Source: Selaginella tamariscina (lineage: Eukaryota > Streptophyta > Lycopodiopsida > Selaginellales > Selaginellaceae). From it: DNA of 64,000 nucleotides. Of this stretch, positions 2,309 to 50,842 are shown piece by piece (within the stretch, counting starts at the first letter, position 1; the number at the start of each line of letters is the position of its first letter). Position numbers and translations under genes: made by a program. Where the stretch lies: assembly GCA_003024785.1 (NCBI GenBank), contig PUQB01000494.1:124001-188000 (forward strand), in the 5' to 3' direction. The notes under the pieces were generated by a model that searched no databases, had not been told where the DNA came from, and saw nothing but the letters and a program-made list of their open reading frames with translations.

Positions 2309-2320
2309 GGTGCTATCCGA

Positions 2321-2332: not shown

Positions 2333-2419
2333 TGAGACAATCAGGATCCAAGCGCACCGTGCTAACGGACACAAACGGAAAGCCTAAAATGTATATGTGG
2401 CGAGGTATGTCATGTAACA
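2333..2419 (-). repeat. copia-1 5' LTR (87 bp)
   Basis: On the minus strand this begins TGTTACATGAC and ends TTGTCTCA, so it has canonical TG...CA ends. One side abuts the primer-binding site and the other abuts intact G-repeat sequence. At 87 bp it is far shorter than typical copia LTRs of several hundred bp. Confidence 0.75.
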
Positions 2420-2559
2420 CGATTTTCAGTGAGAGTGTGAGGAGGTGTCCCATGTCCATCCAATTCTCCACGATCGAGTTGTCATATGTGCAATTCAGGC
2501 TCCGGTCGCTATCTAAGAAGAAACAATTCCGGATGTGTGTGTGAGAGAGAGAGAGTTGT

Positions 2560-3791: not shown

Positions 3792-4337
3792 ATGGGCTCA
3801 GAGGTCTCTTCAATCCAAGCTTCTGAGGTATGATCCCAAAAAAAAATATAAATTTCTCTCAATTGATTCTGTGTTCATTTTCTTCTCAGTACTCAAAAAC
3901 TGTTCAGAACCATCGTCGTCCTCAACCCGAGATTGTTGAAGACTATATATACTCGGGTATGATCCCAATCTGTCCCATCACCATCCTCCCATGTCTTCTG
4001 AGCTCCAGAAAAACAGAGTTTCTTCTGATACTACTCGCTTCTTCAATCGCAATCCTTCTTTTGGTCGTACCCCTCCTGCGGCTGTTGAATTTCATGAAGA
4101 GTATGTCTACAGTCGTCCTCCCGTGCATACTCAGGTAAATACAAACCAGTATATGTCACACACACGTACACACGCACTCTACTTTCTTTGTTAACACTGT
4201 TGTTTACTTTGGTTTAGGCTAGAAAGGAAACTCAGGTAAAAAGTGCATCTGAGACTACTGCAAATGAAGGGGACTATGGTCTGCCAACTTATAATATGCG
4301 TCCTCACCACCCTGCTCGTTATTCACCTCCTTATTAG
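3792..4337 (+). pseudogene. Gene X copy 1: small spliced gene-like structure of unknown function
   Basis: A 5' untranslated segment with its own GT-AG intron (3693-3786) precedes ATG 3792. Exon 1 is 3792-3827 (MGSEVSSIQASE), exon 2 is 3890-4134 and exon 3 is 4218-4337, ending in a stop after HPARYSPPY. All introns have GT-AG ends and pyrimidine-rich 3' sites. The protein of about 130 residues is rich in Pro, His, Arg and Tyr and has no signal peptide or membrane segment. I do not recognise the family. This copy has a 1-base loss in exon 2 (TCGGGTATG where the other copies have TCGGGGTATG), shifting the frame. The four copies differ mainly by small indels and keep their splice sites, except that copy 3 lost part of exon 1. 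Confidence 0.5.
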
Positions 4338-4494
4338 GTTTCAAAAATCTCTTTTCCCCATGTTGTGGAGTGATTAGATGTCTTTAATAAAATTCAACTT
4401 GCAAAATTATTAGGTGATTGCCCACTTACTATGTGTGCATATCCGCTGTGTGTGTCAATCCATAGTTGATTTTACTTAATCTTTAATACATACT

Positions 4495-5444
4495 TTTGAT
4501 GTAATTAAACATACATAACTAAGTATCTTTATTCACAATATTTATAAATGCTATATTAACTCTAAAGTCTTCACACATACACTGTGTATGTTTTACAAAA
4601 GATTCATAAACTTGTGTTTAGTATGTATGTATAAAAGTAAGTAAATATGTTAAATTGTTATAGATTTCTGGAGGCATGTCAATATAAATAATGTGGCAAT
4701 ACTGTATGCTTAATGCATACCACAAAAAATTATATTATTCCCTAAAATGCTTTTTTGATATGTAATTTACCACCAAATGTAGGTTTAACTAACATAAATA
4801 AAATTTAAATTTAACTTATAAATAATTTACTCACTTGAATATATATTGGTAATATTTATTGAATCCAGTCTTGAAATAAAAAAGCAAGAGATGAATAATG
4901 AATATAGAAATATAATTATTTTTCTAAATGATTAAAGGCCTCAAAATGGATGAGATCCTTTACACATATTCGTTTAAAGTTTCGACTCAATCCCTATGCC
5001 TATTAAACCGTAGGAAAGAATTGGTTTCTGTGTACACATAACATATATATGCTAAGAAATATAAGCACCAATTAGCGAAATTATTCCATCCAAATCACAA
5101 TCATCTCTCTCTCACTCTTTATCTCTTACACACACGCAACCATCAAATCCTTTTATTAACTGGTAAGATAACCGTTTCAAGAAAGCTATACATGGGCAGC
5201 AGTTGATCTAAGGGTGAAAAAATGGAGGTAGTATCTCTATACACAAAAAAGAACCTCTAACTAAGCTTAAATATAATTAATAGTTTACCTATTTAAGAGT
5301 TAGCACCAACAATGGAAGAAGGAATCACCTTCCGGCCTCCTTTTCCTCCTCTCTTCTTACTCTTCTTCTTGTTCATAACGATCTAGGTGTAATCCATGGG
5401 AACACAAAAAGATCTTCCGGTACTTTGAGGTAGTTTAAGAGTAA
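4495..5444 (+). repeat. Repeat B in G1
   Basis: AT-rich segment of about 950 bp recurring in G2 (about 27870-28800, reverse) and G3 (about 38135-39105). It is a diverged direct homologue of B' (22590-23640, 41435-42455). Shared landmarks include 'tctttattcacaa', 'ctaaagtcttcacac', 'atccaaatcacaatcatctct' and 'ggtagacctgttt'. B and B' bracket the gag region, so they may be old LTRs or a duplicated flank. No gene seen. Confidence 0.65.
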
Positions 5445-5882
5445 TGTTTGTTAGGATCGTAGTTAGTCATGTAGGAAATTCTTAATCATGTTTCTTTTTT
5501 TTGGGGCATATAATGGGAAAAACACAAAAAAAAAGTATATATTGTGGAAAAAATGAGAGGCGGATGGAAATACAAAATTACAGGTCATATAAGGGGTCAT
5601 TAACACAATACGAAGTTTGAGACAAAGTACGGCATTAAAAGATAAGGATAAGAAGAAGTTACAATAACTGAAAGGATAAGGTTAAGCTTGGGAGGAAGTT
5701 AAGATAACTGCTACTATGGGAACGGGAGTAAGGGTATAGGAAAGTATCCCCAGTATACTGTATATTGTACTATGTGCCATGAGTGGATATAATATAAGTT
5801 TCCTCATTCTCTCATTACATCTTGTCTTGCTTGACCTTCTTCTTGATTTGATGTATAATTACCTCTTCTCAACACTGTGACA
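5445..5882 (+). repeat. LTR-like segment upstream of gag in G1
   Basis: The stretch starts TGTTTGTTAGGATCG and ends CACTGTGACA (TG...CA). It contains a TATA-like ATATAATATAAG about 90 bp before its end, followed by a CT-rich leader, as in many LTR promoters. Related sequence is at about 39108-39540 and, reversed, about 27440-27870. The bases that follow are not a standard primer-binding site, and no matching LTR was found after gag, so the call is tentative. Confidence 0.35.
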
Positions 5883-6052
5883 GAATCCGCAGTATTGTTA
5901 CCTGCTACATACCTTACCATCCTTATCCTTTCCCGACCTTCTAAAGTATGATTTGTACTCTATTTCTCTATCTCCTTATGCCGTACGACCCTTAATACAG
6001 GTTGACGATGATGACCACTGTTATGATTTGTTAAGATTTTCTTAGTTCAACA

Positions 6053-7689
6053 TATGATGACCACGGAGGGATGGTCGTATTAGCAAGTAACTAACAACGT
6101 ATATGTAGGGATGTACCAAAATGGGTAGATAGAGTTTGAAAAGAAATTACGACGGAAGAAGAAATTTGAAGCTTTCCACAGACTACGATTAATATAGTGT
6201 TGCAGAGAGGAAATTTTGCTAACAAAGACAACATGAGGATTTGTTGCATTTAGTAGTAAGTAAATGGATGATTACGAGGAATTCTTGCAAAACGTCAATG
6301 ATACAAAGAGATAAGACAGAGACAGTAAAAGAACGTGAGGAGCAGTACTTACGACGACAAGCCATAATTGAGACTCAAAGAAGATTGGAGGAACAAGAGG
6401 AACAGAGGCATAAGGAGCAATCAGAAGCACAAAGAGTAGAGCAACGACAATTGGAGCATGACATATCTATTGAAGAAGAGGACAACAATGAGGAATACGA
6501 AGACAGAGAAAGACGCATACCGGCACAATATTACTAGGATCTACTTACGATTGAAACACCCGAGATGATGGGAACACTAACAATTACGAGGAAAGTAGTA
6601 CCCTCTACCTTTTTAGGCTTAGAGCACAAAGATAATGTGAAGCCAACAAAATTATAAACGAGCTTGAGAAACTTCAGATATTCCCTTTCACACTTAAGGG
6701 AGATGCCAGCGATTGGTATTACGAGAAGGCCATCATAATTGATAAGTACGACACATTACTCACGTTATTTAGGAACTACTATGTATGCAAATATCGCAAA
6801 CTAGATCCAATAATTCAGCTACAAGAATTGCGGCAAGGACCTACAGAGGCTTGAAGATTATATGCAAAGATTCTGAAAATATATAATCGTTGTGAAGTGA
6901 GAGATGTCAGTGACAAATTGGCAAGGAAATTGTATGTCAACGGACTACGAGAAAGCTTAGAACTCCAAGTATGGTTGACAAAACCACATGACTTGAGAAA
7001 TGCGATAAAGGAGGCTGAACAAATCAAAATATTGATACCACCAAGATTAGAAGATGAGGAACATGAACCACGAAGGTTACATAGAAAGGAGACTGAGATA
7101 TGAGCATGACCTAGAGTAGTATTGTGCATAACATGCAAGAACAAAGAACATAGTGCTTCAGAATGTAAGATACCGAAGTGCTAGATGTGTGGAGGGATAG
7201 GACACGAAGCAAAGCAGTGTCGAAGTATGGGATACAAACCACAACCAATGATTGGACGTGCTGAAGGCTACCCACCACCACCACCCAGATGGACACAACC
7301 CGGAATATGAACCCATATGACTATCCACAAACTCGGAACACCAATCCATATGATTATCCACAAAAGCCGTATAATGGAGAACGAAGGAACAAAAATGGGA
7401 GGAGATACCCCCGGAACCAAAGCCCTATTATTAGCAAAACAACAATCCAGAGATACCATGATGGGGACAATCTTTATTACCAGCACCAATGCAAGCTGAA
7501 CCACCTTTTTTACCACCAATACCGCCTACACCAACGCTACGTGGTGCAAATCAAAACGTGACATGTTTCAGATGTGGGGAAAAAGGACATTATTCCACTT
7601 AATGTAAGATACATAGAAGATGAGGAACGTGAACCACGGAGGTTACATAAAAAGGAGACCGAGATATGAGCATGACCCAGAGCAGTATT
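6053..7689 (+). pseudogene. Gypsy-type gag pseudogene in G1, left part
   Basis: The region encodes, with many breaks, a Gln/Glu-rich coiled-coil segment (6310-6535; EEQYLRRQAIIETQRRL), then a Ty3/gypsy gag core with FPFTLKGDASDWYYE (near 6690) and LARKLYVNGLRESL (near 6915-6960). Zinc knuckles follow (CITCKNKEHSASEC near 7130, CGGIGHEAKQC near 7190, CFRCGEKGHYST near 7565). No protease or polymerase follows in any copy, so this is a gag-only derivative. From about 7605 the sequence jumps back and repeats gag from about 7042, so T1 sits in the second copy of an internal duplication. Confidence 0.7.
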
Positions 7690-7707
7690 ATGCACGTTGT
7701 AACTAAA
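7690..7707 (+). repeat. T1 left terminal inverted repeat
   Basis: ATGCACGTTGTAACTAAA, differing by one base from the reverse complement of the right end and from the T2 terminus at 45528. Beyond this core the ends match only loosely (GTGGGCATG against AGGGCCATG). Confidence 0.8.
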
Positions 7708-7976
7708 GTGGGCATGATACGTGAAAATGGGAATATAAAATAAATTACTAATTAATACTTAAGTTTTAATTATTAATTAATCATTTAATTAATATGTAAT
7801 TAAGCCTTAAATATTAATTAATTAATTAATTAATCCTTCAATAACCTTACTTAGTAAGGAATATTCCTAAAATATCTTAGAATATTCATATTATTCTAAA
7901 AATAGTTTACAATAATGAAGAAATACTATCAAACATAATTACAAATGAAATCATTTCTTATCAACATGTTAATTTT

Positions 7977-9144
7977 TTATAAATACTTTCTTCCTATCAT
8001 ACAGAGAAATCTCCTCATTTTGTCTAAATCATCACTCTCCGGATTAATCAAATCATTTTGGTCAATATCTTGATGTTGTTGCCACCACTTAACACTCTCA
8101 CGAATGCAATTGGGAGTTGCCATCCTTGTTAATACATAAGATGTAATAAGAAGGTCTGCATAAAGGCTCATCTAAAAATGACGTTCCTTAAGAATAATAT
8201 TATAAAGCGCCCGGTTGCTATCCTTCATTTTATAAAATTCAAAATCATCAGAAAGAAAAGCTTCAGGAAATGTTGATACGGTGGATACTGCTCACAAAAA
8301 TTTTCGAGATTCTTCTTTCTGAGGCACGTATCCAAGTAGTTCACTAGCTCATCCATGATATCGTATCAGAATATGGATCGAAAGTGATTGGATGAATACA
8401 AGCAATGTTTTGGTTGAGCATAGCCTTCTGAGGAGAGTCGTCTACTACTAAGATATGTGCATTCTTCATTATCCTTAAGCGACTGATCTCCCCATGAGTC
8501 CCAATTATTCTTTCATTCTTGAAGAAGTATGGCTTGCTTTCCTTTCTTATATTGTGAAATTCGAGAGGTTTATAACACATTCGCTGGTCAAAAATCCAAT
8601 CTTTACGAATCACCTCTTCTGCAACACTACAATGTTTCTTAAGCAAATTCAACAGCGGTGTTAAGTTATGAATCTGCATGCATGACCAAATCCCCACAAG
8701 CGCACCCATCTCCTTAAGCTTTTGAAAGAGACGATCCAACCCTGGACGAAAAATAATATCATATCGAAATTTACCATGACAAGGAATGAAATCTCCTTGT
8801 TTGATTTCTTTTTTCCTATCCTCGGGCCTTTGTCGATGAAGCAGAACACCATTGACATCCAACAACACAATATGGCCATGAGTAACATGGATAGCGTTGC
8901 CTCTTGAATACTTTGCAAATCACTTGTTTGCTCCCTTTCACATTTATCCGTTGCACTATCTCGTTGCCTATCCCTTCATCATTTAATTGTACATCATCCT
9001 TACAAGATTCAGATATTGCATGCGCTGAAGAAATTGATTTCGGAACTGAAGCCAATAAAATGATGATGAAAAAACTGAAGTGGCCCCCATGGTAACGATG
9101 TTTTGAGCTGCATTATTATCCATTTCCTGCATGAACTCTGTCAT
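7977..9144 (-). pseudogene. NIF/FCP1-type HAD phosphatase-like cargo gene in T1 (frameshifted)
   Basis: Read right to left from a likely ATG near 9144, a weak N-terminal segment leads into a HAD domain of the NLI-interacting-factor (CTD phosphatase-like) type. Motif I is LLDVNGVLL near 8860; the usual second Asp of DxDx is Asn here. Motif II is GIWSC near 8690, then WIFDQRMC, with the acidic motif VVDDSPQKA near 8440. The family dephosphorylates phospho-Ser/Thr of protein substrates; the Asn change makes activity uncertain. The domain end (MDELVNYLDTCLRKKN) and a C-terminal extension to 7977 are in shifted frames, with an in-frame TAG before 8171. Frameshifts occur near 8360, 8907 and 9070. 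It lies inside the transposon, so it is probably captured or element-encoded cargo. Confidence 0.6.
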
Positions 9145-9402
9145 TCTGACATGTGGCACAAGAAATTGTCGCCAAACCCCTCTCTTACCTCATGCAATGC
9201 TGAAAATCCATGTTCTCAATTTTCATTACATCTGCAAAATGATAATTAGCTGACCTTAAAATTATCAAGGTATATTATTTACCTTGTTAATGTGTGACCC
9301 ATGTTTGAACTAAAAGCTTCATTAATCCTTGAGAATTTATTTTCTGTACAAATATAAAAATATACAAAAATGCCTTATGTTACACTCATTTACAACTATT
9401 CG

Positions 9403-12400
9403 TCATTCTTTTCCTATTACCTTCTGAGTGAGGCGAAGAAGGTCTAAGCCGCTTGTGAGATGGTTCAAGATCTTCATATCTTCTATTGATGTTTCCATGG
9501 GTAATGGAGTGTGTGAATGTTCTGTACTCCTCGAGATAACTTCCGGTCTAATATCTGATTGAAGTTCGTCCTCAGACTCCGACATTGAACCAGATTCGTC
9601 TTCAGAGCTATCGCACTTATCTGGAGGGAACTTTCTCAAATACTCCTTATGGATTTGTTGGGGTAGTCAGTTGAGAACCTCTCTATCCACTTGTTCAGGT
9701 CCTCAACCATGGTCTTATCCTTTTCAACGGCAAACACACATGTATCCGAAGGTAACACTCCTTCAAGACGGACCCCCTAGTGCAGTAGTCAAAAACCCAC
9801 GCATCACTGTGAGGACCCCTGATCAAGTTGACGATGCTCCGTGCCGCTTGACTTGTAATGTTTGGATAACGTACATTGCCGAATACGTCACTCTCACTAT
9901 CGGTGTATCGGATGGAGGTTCAGGGCCGTTGGAGTGCAAACAGATGCCTGGCCAGTCATTTGGAAGTTTGAAATTGTTTGGCGCATTCCTAACAACCAAG
10001 TGAACAACCGAATCAATGCACTTCGGATCAGCATCATTCATATAAAATCCTGTCCAACGATGTTTATTCCTCTTGGCAAAGGCGAAGGCAAAGGTATCGG
10101 TGACATGAGCAAGAATCAAGAAATAAATACCTGAAAAGTAGATATCAGTCAAGAGTGCAAGTATGAATTCAATAATAAATACCTTCTTTGTATATGCTTG
10201 CACGGCTAAGTTTCTCCACCAAATCCTCTAGTGTCCTGTCTGTCGAAGGATTTTTTGACACCCGCCGATCCATCACGAACAATTGAAACGGTTTCCTACA
10301 AGCAGTGATGGTACCCCATAAAGTCTCCGAATCCAACAAACATCTGTAGGGCTTGTCGTGATTCGTAGCATCCTCCTTTATAAGGTTCAACTCGGTTCTC
10401 CGCTGCTGAAGGACTGCCATAAGAGAAGGCGTCATCGCAATGTTCTCCTTTGGCGTTGGCGTGCAATAGATTCTTGCCCAGATCTTCCGATTGATTCACC
10501 CATTCGACAAGCATATCATCGTTTGTCACATGCAAATATTTGCTGACCTCTTCGTATGTTGAAGCCGAGGTCCAACCCAGTTTGTGGCAGTGTATTCCCA
10601 ACCACTCCTTGAAGTGCCTGACCGTCTTCAACTCCATTGCCTTGAGATGAAAAGGAGAGGTGGGGTGCTGTTGTTAATCTGTAATTTGCCATCAATCACC
10701 AAATCAGCCAAGACTTCCATCTCCTCCATCGTTGTTCCATTTAAAGGCTTCAACCATGTGAGCTTGAAATCGTTGTCTACATCCTTTATAGATTGAACAG
10801 ACTTAGCCTTCGGCGTCTTACTGGGTTTCTTTGCAGACTTCTCTGAGGGCTCCTTCACTTGTCTGCTTCTTCTTCAGTGTTCCTTTTGCAAAGGATTCCA
10901 TAATCCCCAACCATTTGGCAAAGATCCTATCCTCGGGACAAGAAATCAACATCAAAAAGGATGTTTCCTTCCCGCCCACCTGGGCAAAATCAACTGCTAC
11001 AATTTCTTCAACTCTCTGAGAAAAAAGACAGATTAATATACCGGCGAGATAAATCCCGCCCAAACAATTTGCTTACCCGGTAGTCCGCAGATTGTGTATT
11101 CCCTGCGGTAGCTCTTTGTGGTCGCTGAAGAGATTCCCACACGGCTCGCGTGTGTTTGAACTTCTCCCATATTTTGCTGTTGTAGTGGTTGGTGTCTGCA
11201 GCGTCCCATTCCGCCGATAACTTATGGTACTGCTCGATTGTGAGATTCGGCTTCGCTAAAAAGCCGATCTTTTTGTCAGCTTCTCACGGGTATGCTCGGA
11301 AAGTTTTGTTGCCATCGTTCCTTTGTTGTGTTCGTCGAGAAGTCGTTGGGCTGCCGTTATTGTGTGCTGGCCACTAATGATGTAGTACTTGATGATTTTC
11401 TATTCTCCGTCTGAACCTTCCTCATTTGTTCCGGTGTTGTGATCCACACTTTGTCAGCGCCTTTGTTTCTCTCGTAGTATGCGCACAAAACAGCATTATG
11501 TGGAACGGTGTAAGAATTGTCGTCCTTCATCTTCTCCATGAGCTCAGCTACACGTTCCTGGTTGAGTGGCCTGTAATTGAAGTTTGGGTTGACGCTGCAA
11601 TACTTAACCCTACACTCGTAAATCCTATCATCCAACATCATTTCCTTGTGGCTTATTGCAGCATGGGATGCCACAGGTGCAGCTGACAAAACGATGAGAT
11701 TTTCTTCTACGATCCGAATCAACATGTGTGATCCCCGATTGATGCTGTTCTAATGTTCTCGGCACACTCTTCCAGCTCCCGAAATTTCTAAGCAAATTGA
11801 ACGTGATCTGTAAAGAACCTGAGACCAAGCCACCCTCTCAATCTCCTTATGATGTCGCTGTGTTCTTCTTCAATGTGAAGAGGGACGATTGCTCCACTTG
11901 TGATTTTCTGTATTGTGAAGCAATATCTCCTGAGAATACACCTACTCGATGAGTCTGAAGATCTTCGAAGTAGACATCCAGTTGGATCCCCTCCATAGAT
12001 GGGCTTTCGTTGAGTTGAAGAAGAACTCCACGGTCAACATCATTAGTGAACACGTGAACGTCATTATCCACAAGTCGACAAAACCACCCGAAATTAATGT
12101 TGTAACTGGCGACCTCTGGATCCGAGAACGTGACATTGGATGGAACAAGGCATATGTGTCGAGCATCGTTCAATCTGGGTTCACAGCATGCTTTCGGATG
12201 CTTGACTAGCACACCCACTTTCCATTGTTTTGCTTGTCCATGCGATGTGACAGAGGTTAGTTTGACAGCAACCATGGTTGTTCCAATGCGCTTCCCGTTT
12301 AGTTTGAAATATGGCCAAGTTGATTCCAGAATCCCCCTGCCCATCTCTTCTCCTGCTCTCGTCTTTAATGTCACCTCAATTCCACATCTGAATACAAAAA

Positions 12401-12475
12401 TGATTAGTTCAAGCACATATCCGAGTATAACAGATTTTATTTTAATTCTTACCCAGAATTTGACGACGACTCCAT
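9403..12475 (-). pseudogene. Large T1 gene with ParB-like GQH motif and acidic tail (frameshifted)
   Basis: A clean start is visible: ATG at 12475, exon 12475-12453 (MESSSNSG), a 65-bp GT-AG intron (12452-12388), then a long open stretch (12387 to about 11850) opening with CGIEVTLKTRAGEEMGRGIL, an SH3-like beta-rich module. A segment near 11570-11600 reads NPNFNYRPLNQERV and, near 11320-11366, YIISGQHTITAAQRLL. Together these resemble the ParB/sulfiredoxin-like fold, whose hallmark is a G-x-H turn followed by an Ala-rich helix. Later parts include a Lys-rich linker (about 10800) and an acidic C-terminus ending at 9403 (SSEDESGSMSESEDELQSD). A GT-AG intron near 11065 is possible. At least six single-base frame breaks occur. 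The biochemical role is unknown. It is divergent from the transposase gene and may be an accessory transposition protein. Confidence 0.5.
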
Positions 12476-12616
12476 ACTAATGACTCGATCTCCTTGTTTA
12501 ATTAAATCGTCCTTCTGCAAAATAATACACTATGAATACAAATCATATAAAAACGCACACACACTTGTATAAACCCGAATATACAAAAATAATACACAGA
12601 GAGAAGTGACGGAATT

Positions 12617-12703
12617 AACTGTCCAAAGCTCACATTTGTGCTAGTGCAAAAGAAAGATAACATTTCGTTTTAGAACCACCACAAATGTGAGCTCTGGACA
12701 GTT
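12617..12703. repeat. 24-bp near-perfect stem-loop
   Basis: Left arm 12617-12640 and right arm 12680-12703 are inverted copies with one mismatch (GTCCAAAGCTC against GTCCAGAGCTC), separated by a 39-nt loop. It lies about 140 bp upstream of the ParB-like gene start. It could be an RNA hairpin, a binding site or the remains of a tiny foldback insertion; nothing in the sequence decides between these. Confidence 0.7.
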
Positions 12704-12813
12704 TTACATAGATTCCTAGCTTTTACTCGAAATATTGATAAGATGATAAAAGTAAATAAAATGAGATATGCAACTTATATATACTAATACACATATATAT
12801 TCACATGGAAGGT

Positions 12814-14399
12814 GCGGCGGGATTAATCTCGCCACCCCTTCAATGCCTCCTGAAAGAGTGGGCGGGATTAATCTCGCCACCTTTCTGGAGGCCTTGAACG
12901 GGAGTGCGGAATTAATCTGCCACCTTCTCGGTCTCAGAGAGAATTTGGCAGGATTTATTTGGCACACCCTGTTAAAGGTAAAATATTAGGAGCATAGGAC
13001 ATCCTACTGTGGAGAGAAAAGGGTAGGAAGTTCTGTAGTAAGCATGGAAGGAAAGGCTGTGAAGGAGGAAAATCCTTACCGAGAGGAAAAGGTGCGTAAG
13101 GAAAAGGAAGGAAAGGCTGTGAAGGAGGAAAATCCTTACCGAGAGGAAAAGGTGCGTAAGGAAAAGGAAGGAAAGGTTGTGAAGAAGGAAAATCCTTACC
13201 GAGAAAATAAGGAAAAGGAAAAAGGTAAAGGTAAAGGATGACATGGCGAGAGGAAGAGTAGTTAAGGGGAGTTAGGGCAATGAAGGAAGGGTCTCCAGAA
13301 GGGTCTCCACAAGAAGTTCTAACAGGAGAGAGGGTCTCCATTTGAAGTTCTAGCAGGAGATAGAGGTTCTCTACACTTTGTCTCTTATATTCATGTTAGT
13401 AATGAAAGGTGCATATTAGTGAATCTTATGTGTGTGAATATGTTTACTCTCAATGAATGGATCTAACAAGGCAATAGCCAAAATCCGTTCTTGCCCTTGA
13501 CTTTGGAGACCAGTCATAGTGGCACTGGGAGAAGTCTGATATATATACAGATATATTGAGAGTTGAGGAAGGAAAGGGTGTAGCCTTTCCTGTACGTTGT
13601 ATGAAAGGTTTCCTGTCTGTGTGAAGGAAACAGGTTAAATAGGAAAAGGTGAGGCAGAGAGCCCTTTTCCTGTTTAACACACCCCTTCAGTGACTCCAGA
13701 AAGGCGGCGGGATTAATCTCGCCCACCATGTAAGGGATGGTGAAATGAATCTTGCCACCCTTCCCAGTCCCCTCCATTGATATGTTGTAAACCTTCTACG
13801 TCTCATACAGAAACGTTTGGGATTGGTCCGACTCACCAATGGAGAAAAAAGGGAAGGGTGGCGGGATTCATCCTCCAACAGGCATTGAAGGCTCGGTGGG
13901 ATTAATCCCGCCGCCCAAGCCCTTCACTCGGTCCCTAGGCGGCGGGATTAATCCCGCCGCCTAGGCCCTTCAAGCAGGCCTTTGGCAGCGGGATAAATCC
14001 TGCCCGATTCTGTGCAGGGCAACGGGATTAATCCTGCCGCCTAGGCCTTCAGGCAGGCCTTTGGCGGTGGGATAAATCCGCCCGATTCCGCGTAGGGCAT
14101 GCGTACGCGGCGGGATTAATCCCGCCGGACGCCAATGCCCTGTGCGAAATCTGGTGGGATTAATCCCGCCGCCTAGGCCCTTCAGACATGCCAATGGCAG
14201 TGGGATTAATCCCGCCGGATTCCGCACAGGGCATCTATAGGCAGCATGATTAATCTCGCCGCTCATGAGGCTAACCGAATAGCCTGCCTGCTCGGCGGCG
14301 GAATTAATTCGCCACCGAGGGTCTAACCATATAGTGGCGGGATTAATCCCGCCGCTATAACACGTCTCACCATATAGCGGCGGGATTAATCCTGCCGCT

Positions 14400-14400
<1 letters not shown>
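12814..14400. repeat. Palindrome array I (GGCGGGATTAATCCCGCC variants)
   Basis: About 17 full or degraded copies of an 18-bp perfect palindrome occur here, including exact copies near 13932, 14108 and 14335. They are densest from 13880 to 14400, spaced roughly 40-55 bp. Spacers share phrases such as 'aggcccttcagacatgcc' and 'cgcacagggcat'. The GC-rich array contrasts sharply with the AT-rich surroundings. It lies upstream of the minus-strand ParB-like gene, mirroring array II upstream of the transposase gene. Likely protein-binding or structure-forming sites; function inferred only. Confidence 0.85.
13044..13230 (+). repeat. 60-bp tandem repeat, three copies
   Basis: The period is exactly 60 bp, with copies beginning near 13046, 13106 and 13166. 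The first two are identical and the third has a few changes. Because 60 is a multiple of three, an open frame runs through it (Lys/Glu-rich), but there is no other sign of a gene. Confidence 0.85.
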
Positions 14401-14462
<62 letters not shown>

Positions 14463-14818
14463 GTGTAGGAGAGTGCGTGTGTGTGCTAGAGATAGACAAA
14501 TCAGATAAAATTATACAGATACACACACACACACATATATATATGTATATGTATATGTATATACAGGAGTGTGCGTGTGTGTGCGAGAGATAGATAAATA
14601 AATAAAATTATACAGATACTAGTACACATAATATATGTATGTATATATGTACATAGGTATATATATATGTGTGTGTATATGTATATCGTGTGTGAAACAA
14701 ATAAAATCATACAGATAAACAAATACACACACACATATATATATACAGGAGTGTGCGTGTGTGTGTGAGAGATACAATTAACAAATCATATAAATTATAC
14801 AGACACACACACACACAC

Positions 14819-14867
<49 letters not shown>

Positions 14868-15060
14868 GGAGTGTGTGTGTGTGTGCGAGAAATAGATGTA
14901 TATGTATACGAATGTGCGTGTGTGTGCAAGAGATAGAGATCTAAATTATATTATTAAGATACACACACATATAAATATATATGTGAATAAAAAATAAATA
15001 AATAAACTCAGGAGTGTGCGTGTGAGAGAGAGAGAGAGATCTCACCTGTGTGTGAAAGAG
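14400..15060. repeat. Tandem (CA)n(TA)n(TG)n palindromic microsatellites
   Basis: Blocks of CA repeats, a short TA tract and TG repeats recur at about 14401-14462, 14520-14580, 14720-14765 and 14805-14890. They are joined by a repeated linker (agga gtgtgcgtgtgtgtgc gagagatag). Each block is an inverted repeat that can fold on itself. No gene is present. Confidence 0.85.
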
Positions 15061-15094
15061 AGAAGGAGATTTCACAATCGCCGCCTTACTTCTT

Positions 15095-15235
15095 GAAACC
15101 CTAGGAATATACCTAAACCCTAAAAGGAATAGAATATATATTAACCCTAATTGAATATTCCTTCTAAGAATATACTTAAACCCTAAAAAGAATAAACTAT
15201 AGATTCGCCCTAAACGAATATTCTTTCATTATATT
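15095..15235. repeat. Cluster of telobox-like AAACCCTA motifs
   Basis: AAACCCTA occurs at about 15104, 15115 and 15178, with related aaccctaa at about 15144. These are separated by repeated 'gaatat(a/t)' phrases, so the segment is itself an imperfect tandem repeat. Teloboxes are known plant promoter elements as well as degenerate telomere sequence. Confidence 0.6.
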
Positions 15236-15239
15236 ATCA

Positions 15240-16010
15240 GTGTGTGGGTGTGCGTGAGTGTATCACATACACCCAAGAATAAAAATTATGCAGGGGTTTA
15301 ACGTGTGTGTGTCCATGAGAGTGTTTAAAGTTTCACGTGCAGCGATACTATATACACACATAGTATTATACCATAGACATACATACATATTAATACATAT
15401 TAATATTAGAGAGACAGAGTACATAATCATGCATGGTGTGTATGTATGAGAGAAGAGTGACAATACATATTATGGATTATGCATGGTGTGTATGTTTGAG
15501 AGAAGAGAGACAGTACATATTAATATGGATCATGCATGGTGTGTATGTATGAGAGAAGAGAAAGAGTGTTAACAAATTAAATTCATACACATTGCATATA
15601 TTAGTACACACATATACATACACACATGTATACACACATACATACATACATATTACATGTGTAAATTCAATGTGTTACATAGGGTTTAGGGTTTAGGGTT
15701 TAGGGTTAGGATGGATCATGCATGGTGTTTATGTATGAGAGGAGTGTTATACACAGATATACATTATACATATTACATAATATTGTACATCAGTACATAT
15801 TATGGATCATGCATGGTGGGATTTGCATGGTGACACTGTGTATATATGAGAGAAGAGATAGAGTGTTAACAAATGAAATCGTACACATTGCATATATTAG
15901 TACACATATATACATACACACGTGTATACACACAGATATACATATATATTACATGTTTAAATTCAATGTGTTATATACACACAGACTGAGTACATATAGG
16001 TCATACATGC
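15240..16010. repeat. Imperfect tandem repeats around 'atcatgcatggtgtgtatg'
   Basis: The phrase recurs near 15428, 15478, 15532, 15715 and 15808, linked to 'gagagaagag'. A longer block (catacacattgcatatattagtacacac...) recurs near 15585 and 15880. This is non-coding simple-sequence-rich DNA between the two palindrome arrays. Confidence 0.7.
15680..15711 (+). repeat. Interstitial telomere-like TTTAGGG repeat
   Basis: AGGG followed by three TTTAGGG units and a final TTAGG. This is the Arabidopsis-type plant telomere repeat in an internal position within T1. Confidence 0.85.
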
Positions 16011-16159
16011 ATTGAACATGATGTTTTTCAATAAAGAAGCAACATATATTTCTCAAGTTTGGTTTAAGGCAATGTGCATGTGTGTGCATATGTGTCTCTG
16101 TAAGTGCTTCTAATGCGTGTGCACGTGTATATATAATTTATGATTGTGTTTATATATGT

Positions 16160-17000
16160 GTGCAAAACAAACATCGAATAATTAAAAAATAATATTAATA
16201 AACACACTATGAACATATTTACATAATAATATATGATTTTATCTAATATATAACCATATATAGTTTTAATAAATTATTAATTTAATATTGATAATAAAGT
16301 TTAACACTGGAATATTCTTGAAATAATAAGAATTTAATTGAGAAAAATCCCATTAATATATACAATGTAGATCAAGTACTGAAATAATTAACTAAATTAA
16401 TTATGATAATCATGTTTTAATATTGAAATATTCTTGGAATAATAAGAAATAATAAAGAATATCCCATTAATATAAAGAAGATTAATTACTCAAGTATTTA
16501 AGAAAATGATATTAATATACACACTATGGAACATATTTTAAATTATACATAATAATACATCATTTTATCTAATATATAGTCATATATAGTTTTAATAATA
16601 TATATTAATTTAATATTGATAATAAGGTTTAACATAGGAATATTCTTGAAATAATAACAAATTAATTGAGAAAATCCCATTAATATATACAAATGTAGAA
16701 TAATTACTGAGATAATTAAGAATAAGACTAATTTAATTATGATAATCAGGTTTAATATTGGAATATTCTTTGAATATTAAGAAAATAATAAAGAATATCC
16801 CATTAATAGTAGGAAATGTAAATTAATTACTCGAGTAATTAAGAAAATAATAATAATAAACAGACTATGAATATATTTTAAATGATACATAATAATATAT
16901 CAATTTATTTATTGTATATTATATATATATATATATATAATATAAACTTAATAATATACTTGAATATTAAGAATGTAGAATAATTACAAAAATTTCGTAA
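16160..17000. repeat. AT-rich ~340-bp imperfect tandem repeat
   Basis: Phrases such as 'ttttatctaatatata', 'tttaatattgataata' and 'aagaatatcccattaatat' recur near 16230, 16560 and 16900 at similar spacing. Very AT-rich, with no open reading frame of note. From 17000 to 17530 I see only AT-rich DNA, a small inverted repeat around ATGTCAGAC, and one kinase-loop-like mini-exon discussed among the findings. Confidence 0.65.
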
Positions 17001-17530
17001 TATTAAACAGCTTGAAGCACTTGAATGACATTAAATGCAATTTTAAAACACTCATTGGAATTGGAGAGTATATATGTCAGACTGTCGGTTATTTGTTTCA
17101 ACTCATCTTAAATTTTCTTTCTGTTATTTTAAAAATTTCGAATTTCTGACATAAGTATTGTCGGTCTGACATGTAAATTTGAAAATGCATTTAATTTCCC
17201 ACTCAAATTCAGATCTGGTTCTTTCTCCGGCAAGGGTTTCTTCATTTCTTTATTTTTCACTCTTCAGATTTTCTTTTTTCTTCTTAGTGATCAGCTCAGG
17301 AGCGACATTAAATTGGGTGCGCTATTGTTTATAGGAAAGCACGGCGCCTTCAGTGCTGTTTACAAGTAAGTATTATAAAACAAATTTAAATATATTTATA
17401 AAGATTCACTCTCTTACATTCTCTTTAAATTTTAGAATTTAGGGATTTAGGAATGCATTAGATTACAATATATTCTGTTAGGGATTTATCCCGTTTAAAT
17501 ATACTTTAACTTAATATTCTCGGTTAGCCG

Positions 17531-18285
17531 GGGCGGCGGGATTAATCCGGCCATTTTTTTTCGCCTCTTTGAAGAGGTGGCGGGATTAATCCCGCCACCA
17601 TCTCTTTATAGCTATGACAGAATTAGTCCGGGCAATGCTTCTCCGCCTTTAAAAAGAGCGGCGGGATTAATCCGCCGATAACTCTCTCAACTGATAAAGA
17701 GTTATTAATTGAATTATATTTAGAAAGAGTTATTTACGGGATTAATCTCGCCAACCATTTTAGGAGGCAGAGAAGGGGTGGCGGGATTAATCTCGCCACC
17801 ACTTCCTGTTTTAAATATTTGGGCAGGATTCATCCCGAATCTCTTTGAAATCATAGTTTCGGAGAGAGTTGTGGGCGGGATTAATCCCGCCTTATTCCCC
17901 GTCGTCAGAGTTGTGGGCGGATTAATCCCGCCGCCTATTCTCCTTCGTCAGTGTTGTGGGCGGATTAATCCCGCCCCCTCTTCCTCGTGGAGGGATTTGC
18001 GGCGGGATTAATCCCGCCGATTCTCCTCACGAGGAAGATCCGGCGGGATTAATCCCGCCGGTACTTCCTCGTCGGAGGGAGTCCGCGGCGGGATTAATCC
18101 CGCCGCCTCTCTCTGACGAGGAAGTACCGGCGCGGATTAATCCCGCCGCACTCCTCCGACGAGAAGTACCGGCAGGATTAATCCGCCGACACTCTCCGAT
18201 GGGGTAGAGTCGTTGGCGGGATTAATCCCGCCCATCGTTCCTCGTCGGATGGAGTCGTGGGCGGGATTAATCCCGCCCATCAGTT
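17531..18285. repeat. Palindrome array II upstream of the T1 transposase gene
   Basis: About 17 copies of GGCGGGATTAATCCCGCC or variants. Exact copies start near 17579, 17875, 18001, 18042, 18086, 18215 and 18259. From 17870 the spacing is 41-46 bp, and the spacers carry 'cttcctcgtcggaggagtc' in alternating orientations, giving a higher-order inverted arrangement. The array ends about 145 bp before the first coding ATG. The homologous array III lies in the same position in T2. Confidence 0.9.
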
Positions 18286-18430
18286 GTATTAATAAAGCAT
18301 GAGATATTATCTTTATACATAATTATGTATTATTGCACATGCATATTATTAAGCAACCGTAGTTATGATTTCTTAAAATATTGCATAAACAAATATCATA
18401 AATAACATAATTATTTATGTGCAGGACAAT

Positions 18431-21394
18431 ATGTATAATACTGGAGATAAAATATGTCTTCTTTGGAACAACGAGATAGTTGGCACTGGAACTGTGGAAG
18501 TTCGAGATGATAATGCATCATGTCACAATATTGCCCAAGGATCTTGTGTGTATGTATGGGTGAACACCATTTTCAAGCATGTTGAGGTTCCGGGAATGGA
18601 ATTTGAGGAGGGTTCTCCTGTATTGTGGAATTTAGATGAAGTCAAGGCTGACACAGAATATACAGAGTTATAAACAAACAGTAACACGAGTTTTCCAGAT
18701 GATGGCTTTGCTTGCTGTGATGGATGAGGTGATTCTCTTTCTTCATGAGATTGAGGTTGGAGAGGCATCATCACAGCTATAAATCCAATGGAAGCAGTGT
18801 CAAAAGCCTAGTGAAGTGGCGAACATTTGAATTAAGATGACAAGATGGTTCAACATATTCTGGGTTGGATTTTAATAATAACAACCGGCGGAAGAACAAC
18901 TCATATTTTGAAGAGGTTCCTTACATTGGTCCTATTGTAAGAAAAAGGCGATTCATGGGTTGCAGATCTTCCTCTGCAAGTTTCAGCAAGAGGGTGAAGA
19001 TGGATCCTACATCTTCCGAAAGTGTTACGAGCATTTCCACGATTGACTGCTGCAAGAAGAAGTGTTGTCAGATGGCAGACCGGAATGAAATTAACCCAAT
19101 GTAAACATGTCTTTCGTACGCTCACCCAAAAGCAAAGGCATGAGTTTGTATATGCTGCACTAACTGGGTGTATTGATGGAATGGCCTCGAACACAGGTTA
19201 TCAGAGTACATCCATGGTATTTAATAAGGTGGCCATCTGCTTCAAAGCTTGGTACAGTATATACGGGATCCCAAAGACCACGTTCTACTGTCGGAGGGAT
19301 GAGTGGCTAGATGGAGCGTGAACCTCAGTACATGGGAACACTTGCTTGGTCAAAACCTGCTCTCAGATTATGGCAGCCATAAAGATACTCAAGGCTTTTG
19401 TGAAAGCAAATGCAGATAGGATGCCTCACAAGTGTGAACATGTGAACAAGTGCCTCAGTTTGATGGGGCTCCAAGCAATCTGCACTGGTACCTTCAACAA
19501 CATATGGAATACTCATTTTAAGGATGTGGAGATTGCAAAACACTCTAGCTTTTCCAAGTGTGACACTTGTACATCATTGAAGGCTGCAGAGGCTTGTGCA
19601 AAAACCTTGGTGGAGATCACTGCCATTCAAAAGAAGATGGAGGCCCACATGATTGCACAACAAACTTGCCGGTCTCAGTACTATGCACACCGCATGCTTT
19701 CTGTGTCACGCCCATCAGAGTACCTGTGCTTGATCCATGACAAGATGGATCATTCAAAGACCAGCATTCCAAAGCTCTTGCAACACCAAAGTGCCTTGGA
19801 AATGTCATGAAACTTCCGATTTCATTGACAGGTGTGCTAACACATGGACACGGTTGTGAGTCATATGGACACTTTTCACTTCCACATTGGTCTAGCGACT
19901 CCAATTTCACTATTGGGTCGTTGCCATGTGTTTCAGAAACCTTGAAGCCCACTCACAGACAAGTCCTATCAGTGATCTCAAAGTGAAGAAACAACACCTT
20001 CAACCTTTACATAATGCTCTCATGAACACGTCTGCACTTGAGGCTACTTGGGAATATGAGAGGCATTGTCAGCAGCCTGCACAAAAAACAGATGGCCCTG
20101 TTGAGAGTTCAGGTTCAGTGGAGGGATCTAGCTCAAATAGTGTACATGTGTCCTCAACATCAAATAAGCTTCCTCGTCATTTGCTTTTACAGATGGATAA
20201 TTGTGCAGGCGAGAACAAAAATAGGTAAATCATTTTACTTAAGGGTTTCTCAAGCTCATACTTACTTTTATTTTCTAGATATGTGCTAGCATACTTGTCA
20301 ATGCTTGTTGCCAAAGGTGTGTTTGAAACAATCACGCTCAGTTTCTTATGGTTGGTCACACTCATGAAGATATTGATGCGTTCTTCAGCAAGGTCTCCAA
20401 CTCTACAAAAAGGACAAGTGCACTTACCTTACCGCATATGATGAATCTTTTTGAAAATTGCATCTCCAAAAAAAGTTGTGCTTTGCTTGTGACTGAGGTG
20501 CCAGACTTCAAAAAATTTCTCAAGGAGTATATAAAAGAGGGAGTGATTCTTTAGTTGGTCACCTTGTGCCGCTACAATTCTTTTTCTCCATACGAGATGG
20601 TATACCTATTATGCAGTACAAGTTACGGCCATCAGAGCAGGAGTGGTTACCGAAAGAGGGTTAATGCTCTTCAAAAGTGGAGAGAATGGAAAGCCACTTC
20701 TCCCAGAAGGACAACCAGACCCTATTCCATTGAGTGCCCAGCTCAAGGAACAAGAGGTTATTATTGATGGCATCAAAAAATATGTGGCATGGGTTCAAAA
20801 ATCGATGCCAAAGAATTCTGATAAGGCAACTGGTTACTCAGAACTATATAAGCATGTGGTCACTATTGGGAGACTGTTGTTCGAGAGTTGGAAGGGCCTA
20901 CTGTCACAAGTACAGAATTGCAACACCCTTTTTGGCCTAAAACAAGGTGGCGAGAGGAGATTGAAATGACATCACATGAGCATAGAAGCCAGTAGTGATG
21001 TGGAAGTGCAAACCCCACACTTTGTTGGACAAAGGAACCAAAAACCTAAAGCATACTTTGATTGTGCAAGGATCTTCAAAAACTAATGATGGTTCTCATT
21101 ACTCCAGATGCGTCATATAATCAGCCTATTTGGATGGGTCAAATTATCGACACACCTGAAGTAATCACAAAAAATAGTATTGTTAAGGTTGCATGGTTCA
21201 AACCACAAAAAAGGCGACACGAGAAGGAGAGCGAAAGATATAATGGATGCCTAGAGAAAACATGGTCTCCCAATCAAAAAGACCCAGCATGTTTTATAAA
21301 TGTTAAATCCATTCGATATGGGTGGATGTCAAGAAGCGTTGATAAAGTCACGATTAACAAAACTGCAAGGGAATGTATGTTTTCTGAAGCTTAA
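18431..21394 (+). pseudogene. T1 DUF7869-type transposase-like gene (frameshifted)
   Basis: A splice-acceptor-like tgcag precedes ATG 18431. The first segment (GDKICLLWNNEIVGTGTVEV) is an SH3-like module, repeated once further in. A Cys-rich stretch (DCCKKKCCQ, about 19045) follows, then the RNase-H-like core: LIHDKMDHSKT (near 19735), LLLQMDNCAGENKNR (near 20185-20224), a 54-bp GT-AG intron (20225-20278), then VGHTHEDIDAFFSKVS (near 20350). These are hallmark motifs of DUF7869 proteins and plausible DDE/D-type catalytic positions. The C-terminus ends ARECMFSEA at 21394. Compared with T2, T1 lacks 24 codons near 19430 and has extra indels, for example in NEI at 19090. Probable role: transposase of the T element; catalysis is inferred. 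Confidence 0.7.
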
Positions 21395-21879
21395 AGCAAT
21401 TACAAAATTATAAAATATCATATATTTAATATTCATAATTATTATAAACTCTTTAATAATAGTACCAAATTGTTACTTAACTATATAAATTTAAAAAATA
21501 TGGAAGATTGACTATATTATTATAGGATTTTATATATATATATATTACTACTACAAATTTTTAATTAATAATGTTATATTTAAATATTAATATTTTAATA
21601 ACAACATCAATATTTATATAATGTACCTCTTATGCTCTTCCTTAATTGTTATATTAGGCAATATATTATATAATTTAATACCTTCTACTTTTATAATGTT
21701 ATTAATTTTTGTTCAATGAATGCTATAATTTATTAAAGGGTAGAATACAAAATAGAATATTCTAAAGAATATTCTTTTTCAAACATATATTCTAAAGAAT
21801 ATTCCTTTAATATTAGAAAATGCTAATTAAATAGCTAAAATTGCTAATTATTAGGAAATGGGACTATAGCCATGGCCCT
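21395..21879 (+). other. AT-rich 3' terminal region of T1
   Basis: Non-coding and strongly AT-rich, with repeated 'aaagaatattc' phrases near 21770-21810. The same region, inverted, forms the start of T2 (45546-46010), so it is conserved in the element and probably holds the 3' UTR and subterminal sites. Confidence 0.7.
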
Positions 21880-21897
21880 TTTAGTTACAACTTGCAT
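21880..21897 (-). repeat. T1 right terminal inverted repeat
   Basis: Plus strand TTTAGTTACAACTTGCAT. Its reverse complement is ATGCAAGTTGTAACTAAA, identical to the T2 terminus at 45528-45545, and the similarity to T2 continues inward for tens of bases. Confidence 0.85.
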
Positions 21898-21901
21898 TAT
21901 T

Positions 21902-22590
21902 GTGCATAACATGCAAGAACAAAGAACATAGTGCTTCAGAATGTAAGATACCAAAGTGCTAGATGTGTGGAGGGATAGGACACGAAACAAAGTAGTGTCG
22001 AAGTATGGGATACAAACCACAACCAATGATTGGACGTGCTGAAGGCTACCCACCACCACCACCCAGATGGACACAACCCGGAATATGAACCCATATGACT
22101 ATCCACAAACTCGGAACACCAATCCATATGATTATCCACAAAGGCCGTATACCACAAACTCAGAACACCAACCCATATGATTATCCACAAAGGCCATATA
22201 ATGAGGAACGAAGGAACAAAAATGGAGGAGATACCCTGTGAACCAAAGCCTATTATCAGCAAAATAACAATCCAGAGATACCATGATGGGGACAATCTTT
22301 ATTACCAGCACCAATGTAAGCCAAACCACCTTTTTTACCACCAATACCGCCTGCACCAACGCTACGTGGTGCAAATCAAACGTGACATGTTTCAGATGTG
22401 GGGAAAAAGGACATTATTCCACTTAATGTAATAAGCATGACAATGTTTGATGTTACACATGTGGAGAGATGGGACATTATTTGCCGTAGTGCGCACAACC
22501 TGAATTTAACACCAGAGTACCACCAGAACTGGCAACGCCAAGGATTGAAGACCAACAAGAAGGTGATCCGGAGGAATAGATCATTAAAAC
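21902..22590 (+). pseudogene. Gypsy-type gag pseudogene in G1, right part after T1
   Basis: Continues the gag interrupted by T1: zinc knuckle CITCKNKEHSASEC (near 21910), CGGIGHE (near 21970), a repeated NPYDYPQ segment (22090-22195), CFRCGEKGHYST followed by a stop (near 22385-22430), and CYTCGEMGHYLP-like (near 22455). Stops in the second and third knuckles are shared with the other gag copies. No protease follows. Confidence 0.7.
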
Positions 22591-23776
22591 ATGCATTCCA
22601 CTAATTAAACATGTATCTTTATTCACAACATGCTTAAATGCTATATTGTACTCTAAAGTCTTCACACACACATACACATTTGATGTTAAGTTGTTATAGT
22701 TACTATACATATACACATCATATAGTTTTTGAATGAGTTTGCGTACATGTGTTATGTGTGGGTTGCTGTTACCATACTGCACAAACTAGGCTTAATAGGT
22801 TGTTGAACCACTCTTAGGAAAATTCCCCCCTATGGGAATTCAAGATTCCCGAGGCATGTCCATATAAATACTAGGCAATATTATATGCATGTTTAAAAAA
22901 AATTAATACAAATTTGATTATATCTTTAAAAATACTTTTTTAAAGTGTAAATCACCACCAAATCTAGGTTACAGCAGCAAAAGTGCACGCAACCTAAATA
23001 AAAAATTTATAATTAAATTTAAATCAATAATGTATTCACTTAAACTTGAGCATATAATGTTAATACACTAAACCCAACTATGGAATAGAAGGCGAGAGAT
23101 GAATAATAATATTAAATATATTTATTTTCTAAATGATGGTGGTTGAAGGTCTCAAACTGGATTAAACCCTTTATATAGGTGCTTTAAATGTTAGTATATT
23201 ATTCCCTTATAATGCTTTATTTTATTGGACCAGAAAGTCCTTACTAAAGAAACAGTTTCTAGTCATAGACAAGACCCACTCTTTCCAATTAGCTAAACTA
23301 TTCCATCCAAATCACAATCATCTCTAGCACACACACAAACAACCATCGAATACTTTTATTAATTGCAGCAGTTGATATAAGGGTGAGAAAAATAGAGATA
23401 GTATCTCTACATAAAAGAGAGATACCTCTACTAAAATTAAATATAATTAATAGTTTGCTTCTTTAAGAGTTAACACCACCAATGGAAGAATTCGCATTCT
23501 AGCTTCTTCTTCTTTTCCTTTTGTTCTTCTTATCCTTTATTCTCCTCTTCTTTGTATCAATCCACATGGAAATCCTCATAAATACGAAAAGAATAGATGG
23601 TCCATGAGGTAGACCTGTTTGGGAGTAGAGCTCTTAATCCATGGTATCCACGAGCTTAAAGAGGATGAAGAAGATTGTTGAGCAACTTTTGGGGCCTTCA
23701 TTGTGTGCTTATCATCAACTGGATGGGTCTTGAGAGTGGTGTGTAGAAATCCTCCGGTTCTAGCTGGAACTTTGCT
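22590..23776 (+). repeat. Repeat B' in G1 and its 3' extension
   Basis: Diverged direct homologue of B. Near its end the phrase CCATGGTATCCACGAGC (about 23640) resembles a copia-type primer site, so B' might derive from a 5' LTR. A short open stretch then leads to 'ggaactttgct' (23776), where the inverted copy in G2 also ends. No gene is supported. Confidence 0.6.
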
Positions 23777-23908
23777 GAATGTGACTACTAGAATTGTTGG
23801 AACAACAAGTATGGCCATATGCAAATCTTGATTTTTAGTGTGTGTATGTGTGAGAGATGCGTTTAAAGCACCATACATATACACATACAATAAATAAATA
23901 AATAAATA

Positions 23909-23959
<51 letters not shown>

Positions 23960-24337
23960 AAATAGATAGATATAGAGAGAAAGCATGTATAGAGAATATT
24001 ATACAGAAGATTCAAAATATACTATAAAATCCATCAGTTGTCAGAATAAAATTATAAAAATCGGCCATAACCAATACTACACGGACCAGAAGCATAGAAA
24101 ATATCAAAAGCATATAATAATAATTGTTTCAAACTCAAGTATAACCTTACACATACACAAAGACACACATATCCAATTCAAACAGTTTAAAAGCGTAAAC
24201 ATGAACTCAGTATACTCAAACAAACACACACGCACGCACACACAACAACCATGTACGTCACATACAAATATGCACATTTCCCACAAAATACTTGGCATGG
24301 AGAAGAAGCCCTTGTCCGTTCAAGTAAAGACAGCCAC
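23777..24337 (+). repeat. Spacer block S1
   Basis: Begins gaaTGTGACTACTAG and ends GACAGCCAC. It contains TA and GA microsatellites (23905-23960) and 'cgtaaacatgaactcagtatac'. Related copies S2 (30992-31512) and S3 (42602-43134) are in the same orientation. S1 is flanked on both sides by inverted copies of the B' end ('ggaactttgct' and 'agcaaagttcc'). Confidence 0.8.
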
Positions 24338-25509
24338 AGCAAAGTTCCAGCTAGAACCGGAGACTTCTACACACCACTCTCAAGACCCATCCAGTTCGAT
24401 GATAACACACAATGAAGGCCCCAAAAGCTGCTCAACAATCTTCCTCATTCCTCTTTAAGCTCGTGGATACCATGGATTAAGAGCTCTACTCCCAAACAGG
24501 TCTACCTCATGGACCATCAATTCTTTTCCTATTTCTGAGGATTCCATGTGGATTGATACAAAGAAAGAGGAGAATAAAGGATAAGAAGAACAAAAGGAAG
24601 AAGAAGAAGCTAGAATGCTAATTTTTTCATTGGTGGTGTTAACTCTTAAAGAAGGAAATTATTAATTTTATTTAATTTTAGTAGATTTATGTAGAGATAA
24701 TATCTCTATTTTCTCCATCCTTATATCGACTGCTGCAATTAATAAAAGTATTCGATGGTTGTTTGTGTGTGTGCTAGAGATGATTGTGATTTGGATGGAA
24801 TAGTTTAGCTAATTGGAAAGATGTGGGTCTTGTCTATGACTAGAAACTGTTTCTTTAGTAAGGACTTTCTGGTCCAATAAAGCATTATAAGGGAATAATA
24901 TACTAACATTTAAAGCACTCTATATAAAGGGTTTAATCCAGTTTGAGACCTTCAACCACCATCATTTAGAAAATTAAATATATTCTAATATTATTATTCA
25001 TCTCTCGCCTTCTATTCTATAGTTGGGTTTAGTGTATTAACATTATATGCTCAAGTTTAAGTGAATACATTATTGATTTAAATTTAATTATAAATTTTTT
25101 ATTTAGGTTGCGTGCACTTTTGCTGCTGTAACCTAGATTTGGTGGTGATTTACACTTTAAAGAAAGTATTTTTAAAGATATAATCAAGTTTGTAGTAATT
25201 TTTTTTAAACATGCATATATATATATTTATATGGACATGCCTTGGGAATCTTGAATTCCCATAGGGGGGAATTTTCCTAAGAGTGGTTGGACAACCTATT
25301 AAGCCTAGTTTGTGCAGTACGGTAACAGAAACCCACACATAACACATGTACGCAAACTCATTCAAAAACTATATGATGTGTATATGTATAGTAACTATAA
25401 CAACTTAACATCAAATGTGTATGTGTGTGTGAAGACTTTAGAGTACAATATAGCATTTAAGCATGTTGTGAATAAAGATACATGTTTAATTACGTGGAAT
25501 GCACGTTTT

Positions 25510-50840: not shown

Positions 50841-50842
50841 AT

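Follow-up and report, generated by a model that had tools for sequence, protein, structure and literature searches.

Among described transposons, Sola elements resemble the element reported here most closely. Sola elements, which are also present in the moss Physcomitrella, encode a DDD transposase, generate 4-bp target duplications, carry terminal inverted repeats (TIRs) of 11–1124 bp and measure mostly 2–9 kb, with some above 15 kb (PMC10741241); for the Sola2 elements of amoebae, 12–21 bp TIRs, AT-rich 4-bp duplications (AWWT) and the possible presence of an extra, captured Fanzor1 gene are described (PMC3627910). Here we analyzed 64,000 nt of the Selaginella tamariscina genome (contig PUQB01000494.1, positions 124,001 to 188,000; this whole stretch is called the window, and all coordinates are window positions), which contain a DNA transposon of 14,208 bp, termed T1, with a gene for a protein of the DUF7869 family that we consider a predicted DDD/E transposase.

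Measured against these descriptions, the T1 family shares with Sola the 4-bp duplication, short TIRs, an occurrence in moss and the possibility of extra genes, and it probably has Asp at the three catalytic places. In contrast, T1 is 14 kb long, compared with the usual 2–9 kb, and has two extra genes and phased palindrome arrays. By analogy with these descriptions, the family would thus work like a Sola. Pfam labels DUF7869 (PF25273) a domain of unknown function; the T1 protein matches it significantly with full catalytic motifs, and here the domain is joined to transposon ends, target duplications and copies.

Ends, target site and copies of T1

The initial annotation of the window, made from the letters alone, had proposed that the 14.2-kb interval moved as one unit, citing inverted termini that agree in 17 of 18 bases, TATT on both flanks and one empty site near 40800 in a copy of the host repeat (G3). 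The features that bear on this proposal are:

7690–21897: T1, complete DNA transposon of 14,208 bp (inverted ends, TATT duplication, three empty sites)
7690–7707, + strand: left TIR, ATGCACGTTGTAACTAAA, 18 bp in T1
21880–21897, − strand: right TIR, ATGCAAGTTGTAACTAAA
7686–7689, + strand: target site duplication TATT, left
21898–21901, + strand: target site duplication TATT, right
40735–40878, + strand: empty site in host repeat copy G3
7054–7199, + strand: empty site 2, in a local host-repeat duplicate adjoining T1
26103–26247, − strand: empty site 3

Comparison of ATGCACGTTGTAACTAAA with ATGCAAGTTGTAACTAAA gave the same 17 of 18 matching bases, and none of the 12 other shifts (−6 to +6) yielded more than five matches. 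In other copies, the likeness of the left and right ends extends over ∼27 bp with two differences. TATT was seen both directly before 7690 and directly after 21897. When the flanks of T1 were joined and aligned to the window, three empty host-repeat sites aligned end to end with them, i.e., the predicted one in G3 and two more, each with exactly one TATT fewer. Because all three sites are one TATT short, we conclude that T1 is a single insertion with a 4-bp duplication, and the ends, the duplication and the empty sites bear out the movement of the interval as one unit. Inverted ends, a target duplication and empty sites, by which transposons of the TIR type are recognized, are thus all present.

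Immediately left of T1 lies a tandem duplication of ∼550 bp of host-repeat sequence (7054–7690), whose first duplicate keeps the empty site; positions 7120–7607 are 87.5% alike to 21898–22431. This local duplication leaves the single-insertion reading of T1 unaffected.

A search of the assembly (300.7 Mb) revealed 4,243 occurrences of the inner end motif (18 bp, at most two mismatches; 2149 + 2094), compared to 0 + 1 for the reversed control, and 1,723 occurrences of a left-end-specific 26-mer (at most two mismatches), compared to none for its control. Extrapolated to 14 kb for each of the 1,723 left ends, as if all were full length, the family would make up as much as ∼8% of the 300-Mb genome.

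We examined 28 left ends: that of T1 and, from the listed matches to the inner end motif, ten fetched with ∼20 kb each and 17 of 20 further ones fetched with a short left piece, those whose contig reached the stretch 11–15 kb away (one only partly). In 21 of the 28, the left end is followed by a transposase half in the same orientation; these comprise T1, eight of the first batch and 12 of the second. Seven of the eight in the first batch are two-ended copies of 11.9–14.8 kb, and the eighth, L025/26, has an extra middle region between left end and transposase half. For L021/22 and L024/23, no transposase half was found within 20 kb of the left end; the other five unlinked left ends belong to the second batch, where three stretches still lay in the middle of the element and two were without any element sequence. 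With 21 of 28 cases showing it, linkage between left terminus and transposase half is the rule. The initial annotation had named copies in which the two are never linked, or duplications of other lengths, as signs of a chance composite; applied to these copies, this check came out in favour of a single unit, given the linkage and a duplication of which no length other than 4 bp recurs.

For 18 copies, both ends were readable (T1, seven of the first batch, one on contig C113 from 197 bases at its two ends, and nine of the second batch, eight of them by motif and L043/L044 by alignment). An exact 4-bp duplication flanks nine of these (TATT, ATGT, ATTG, ATTA, ACTT, TCTT, TAGA, CGTT and CCTT), and no other length recurs: L013/14 is compatible with 5 bp, or with 4 bp should its right end have lost one base, and in the remaining eight copies no duplication was seen. 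As a control, flanks of different copies were mispaired, which gave 4-bp agreement in only 2 of 272 pairs (L044 left out). The copies lacking a duplication are not simply the youngest, as their ages are mixed; recombination between copies or chimeric assembly may have removed the match. The two halves of the element also diverge discordantly, e.g., L015 and L031 differ by 5.1% on the left and 0.5% on the right, and T1 and L020 by 0.8% and 2.7%, respectively. This pattern suggests that copies recombined with each other, perhaps within the palindrome-rich middle, or that the assembly is chimeric.

A query of 821 residues of the window's transposase gave 8,432 candidates, of which 55 places were scored; such counts are lower bounds. 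All 55 are 97–98% identical over residues 1 or 3 to 473 and 99–100% identical over residues 468–821. Their open frames span 870–1,059 amino acids with one TAA each, and reach at least 1,010 amino acids in 33 of the 55. Since dozens of transposase copies are nearly identical, the T1 family was active very recently. T1 is a real, well-defined DNA transposon with several genes, very abundant and active in recent times.

The DUF7869 protein as a predicted transposase

The right half of T1 encodes the DUF7869 protein, with the following features:

18431–21391, + strand: transposase gene, DUF7869, with several frameshifts in T1 (relatives P0001–P0031)
20225–20278, + strand: intron of 54 bp, GT..AG, also in the second copy T2 (see below); intron bases 2–4 give an in-frame TAA
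19739–19741, + strand: first catalytic Asp (IHDKMD), invariant in 24 aligned relatives and at least 90% conserved in 31
20196–20198, + strand: second catalytic Asp (QMDNC), invariant in the 24 and in the 31 aligned relatives
20363–20377, + strand: third acidic motif (H-E-D-I-D), both Asp invariant

In line with the initial annotation, which had placed a DUF7869 gene here, the PF25273 profile matches at 20327–20551 (E = 2.1e-18) and at 19896–20225 (E = 3.2e-6). The single TAA and a gap in the match, seen at the 55 transposase places, would fit the 54-bp intron. In the 24 aligned relatives, columns D526, D664, D704 and D706 (numbered as in P0003) are invariant and E703 is not; from this alignment we infer the identity of the third catalytic acid in DUF7869.

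An AlphaFold2 model of the relative P0009 shows an RNase-H-like fold with the three acidic residues on strand 1, strand 4 and the helix after strand 5, and its structural neighbours (VIA-align 2) are Mos1/integrase-like. Considering the modelled fold, the conserved acids and these neighbours, DUF7869 here is predicted to be a DDD/E transposase. It resembles Mos1 mariner transposase and retroviral integrases in its RNase-H-like core and in the distance of 38–41 residues between the second and third acidic residues, but differs in having 152 residues between the first two Asp, a 4-bp duplication instead of TA, and N-terminal SH3-like domains. For the N-terminus of the P0003 model, the Foldseek list consists mostly of SH3/Tudor-like folds. 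Foldseek with the whole P0003 model gave no match at E ≤ 0.001, while a smaller model did better, and the DUF7869 profile had no match at E ≤ 1 among PDB sequences.

Taken together, we are highly confident that T1 represents a family of autonomous-type cut-and-paste DNA transposons with short TIRs, 4-bp target duplications and DUF7869 as transposase. In the proposed mechanism, the DUF7869 protein, a predicted DDD/E nuclease of the RNase-H-like type that begins with two SH3/Tudor-like domains, would bind both ends, cut, and join them to the target with a 4-bp stagger, a chemistry drawn by analogy with Mos1 and integrases. The family has amplified to at least ∼1,700 left ends and was active very recently. 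DUF7869, a widespread domain of unknown function, would thereby be assigned a function and be tied to precise DNA termini, a length of target duplication and numerous nearly identical copies, and genome projects could class DUF7869 genes as transposons and not as host genes. The element also brings its activity, and what its palindrome arrays do, within direct reach of experiment.

Relatives of the protein reach up to 50% identity (jgi and lgn records) and include members from moss (P0017), liverwort and mussel. In IMG/VR, none of 21 pattern matches was confirmed as a relative. GTDB contigs gave four loci; one of them (L001, positions 1–4327), on a contig binned as cyanobacterium, has an open DUF7869 frame of 963 amino acids that groups with a protein of the moss Ceratodon, and we therefore take it as moss DNA in a bacterial bin, i.e., a likely contamination judging from this grouping. 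Inverted-repeat motifs flank the L001 gene on both sides. For the four short GTDB contigs, the five longest inverted repeats listed for each include no evident pair of transposon ends. The ratio of nonsynonymous to synonymous polymorphism (pN/pS) of the transposase is 0.49 compared to 0.53 and 0.78 in the shifted frames (nine rows), a weak contrast. DUF7869 was not named in the literature searched, and the listed matches to the letters GHTHED appear unrelated by their titles.

Palindrome arrays and left genes

Besides the transposase gene, T1 carries two palindrome arrays and two genes in its left half:

12815–14400: palindrome array A, consensus GGCGGGATTAATCCCGCC, 5′ of the left gene, with 12 cores at 12821–14384
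17534–18285: palindrome array B, 5′ of the transposase gene, with 15 cores at 17540–18265
8347–8919, − strand: HAD / FCP1-NIF-like phosphatase gene (PF03031, E = 4.2e-11)
9406–12386, − strand: large left gene, ∼970 amino acids read in pieces

Both arrays noted in the initial annotation were thus located. The palindrome GGCGGGATTAATCCCGCC is perfect or near-perfect, with the core GATTAATC, and each array is located 5′ of one of two gene groups, which point away from each other. Core counts in the seven two-ended copies range from 18 to 42, and almost every core falls within these two regions; in L015, a run of 2,500 N covers the region of the left array. Among 179 core spacings below 60 bp, the median is 44 bp, or about four turns of DNA, and 94% are within 35–50 bp. 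Outside the elements, the fetched flanks (41,261 bases) contain a single core, and the remaining 45,456 bases of the window contain none. The arrays are putative protein-binding sites of the element; most likely they would be bound by a DNA-binding domain that the element itself encodes, perhaps the transposase's SH3-like domain, which may weakly recur in the left protein, and this binding could serve regulation or bring the ends together. By eye, the region 17340–18424 shows a possible 5′ splice site (near 17368) and a 3′ splice site (18424); given these sites, array B may lie within an intron at the 5′ end of the transposase gene.

The phosphatase gene proposed in the initial annotation was recovered: PF03031 matches in T1 and, at E = 5.1e-12, in copy L015, where an open frame of 356 amino acids spans the gene, and both bit scores (43.2 and 46.2) exceed the cut-off of 21.8. 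With this frame as query, no protein relative was found at E ≤ 0.001 among 1,259 candidates, although PF03031 matches, and none at E ≤ 0.01 among PDB sequences. The same protein search with the 968-amino-acid reading of the large left gene gave no relative at E ≤ 0.001 among 6,431 candidates; as it requires common 5-residue words, distant relatives could escape it. The earlier label ‘ParB-like’ did not hold up: neither it nor a methyltransferase reading, both made by eye, gained support from Pfam, NCBIfam, PHROGs or PDB sequence searches, and they were dropped. From its frames and GT..AG borders, the large left gene has probable introns near 11013–11076 and 10132–10183.

In T1 and seven copies, pN/pS of the large left gene is 0.41 compared to 0.68 and 1.08 in the shifted frames, and that of the HAD gene is 0.43 compared to 1.67 and 1.21, the latter from few changes (7 synonymous, 12 other). 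This coding signature, kept across copies, indicates that both are long-standing genes of the element and not random passengers. The N-terminus of the left protein aligns to the second SH3-like domain of the DUF7869 family with a score of 27.4 (highest of 150 shuffles, 26.7), and hhalign assigns the same alignment a probability of only ∼6%; a common SH3-like domain is thus hinted at by these sequences.

Affinities, alternative explanations and neighbouring elements

CACTA (En/Spm) elements have CACTA ends and 2–3 bp duplications, and their repeated protein-binding motifs and accessory protein would offer an analogy to T1. T1 was not assigned to this group, as its ends start with ATGCA and its duplication is 4 bp. 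The N-terminus of relative P0003 matches TNP1/EN/SPM (PF03017) weakly, with E = 6.6e-4 and 19.9 bits, under the cut-off of 21. The target of piggyBac and Kolobok is TTAA, and membership there was likewise rejected, as none of the nine duplications is TTAA.

On balance we lean slightly towards T1 belonging to the Sola superfamily, perhaps as a large moss-type member, with DUF7869 being the Sola transposase that Pfam leaves unnamed; this would concern the naming and not the mechanism. The Sola accounts mention a DDD transposase, a 4-bp duplication, TIRs from 11 bp upwards, cases above 15 kb, moss and an extra gene (PMC10741241, PMC3627910), and the T1 family has 4-bp duplications, short TIRs, probably Asp at all three catalytic places and the moss relative P0017; however, GC-containing duplications such as CGTT and CCTT are unlike the AWWT described for amoeba Sola2. 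A more far-reaching proposal, which we regard as rather doubtful, is that DUF7869 elements are a superfamily of their own, in which an SH3-like domain of the transposase and of the orphan left protein would read the helically phased arrays at both genes as one switch for expression or synapsis, and the FCP1-type phosphatase would be a third fixed gene acting on host transcription or on silencing of the element.

Two other explanations concern the unity of T1. The arrays and left genes could be host sequences or other repeats that inserted later and ride along, as the varying array size (18–42 cores) and the lack of a left-gene relative at E ≤ 0.001 in the protein set might suggest; but the seven two-ended copies hold both arrays at the same places (the left region of L015 being N), pN/pS of the left genes is 0.41 and 0.43, and the moss-like contig L001 has its own, unrelated palindromes beside its DUF7869 gene (AGTTTAGCTCGACTCGAGCTAAACT and variants), so that we consider late riders improbable. 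That T1 is a chance composite, with an older left element lying beside a separate transposase element, would account for the discordant halves and for the two-ended copies, half of them, without a matching duplication. Yet at 21 of 28 left ends the transposase half is found again, with order and strand unchanged, and T1 has its TATT and three empty sites, which makes an accidental juxtaposition extremely improbable compared with T1 as one transposon.

The window also contains part of a second copy and an adjoining retrotransposon:

45528–49863, − strand: T2, right half of a second, incomplete copy, repeating the right end
49864–57215: long terminal repeat (LTR) retrotransposon, beginning where T2 stops (49863/49864), with LTRs 98.8% identical

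T2 is 95–97% identical to T1 18807–21897 and 88% to 17950–18806; a left half belonging to it was not seen in the window. At its insertion point, two host copies continue without insert and a third differs just past the point. The host repeat into which both T1 and T2 inserted is present in several copies, on both strands, at 2420–7607, 21898–30991, 30993–32340 and 36817–45527; these are mostly 92–97% identical, and the repeat by eye contains CCHC-like zinc-knuckle coding sequence. The retrotransposon shows no target duplication at its edges, and a related LTR (68%) is found beyond it at 57217–57685; a rearrangement between related retroelements is therefore likely. After its LTR, at 50840, we observe a primer-binding-site-like sequence, TGGTATCGGAGC, which we take to be similar to those of plant retroelements.

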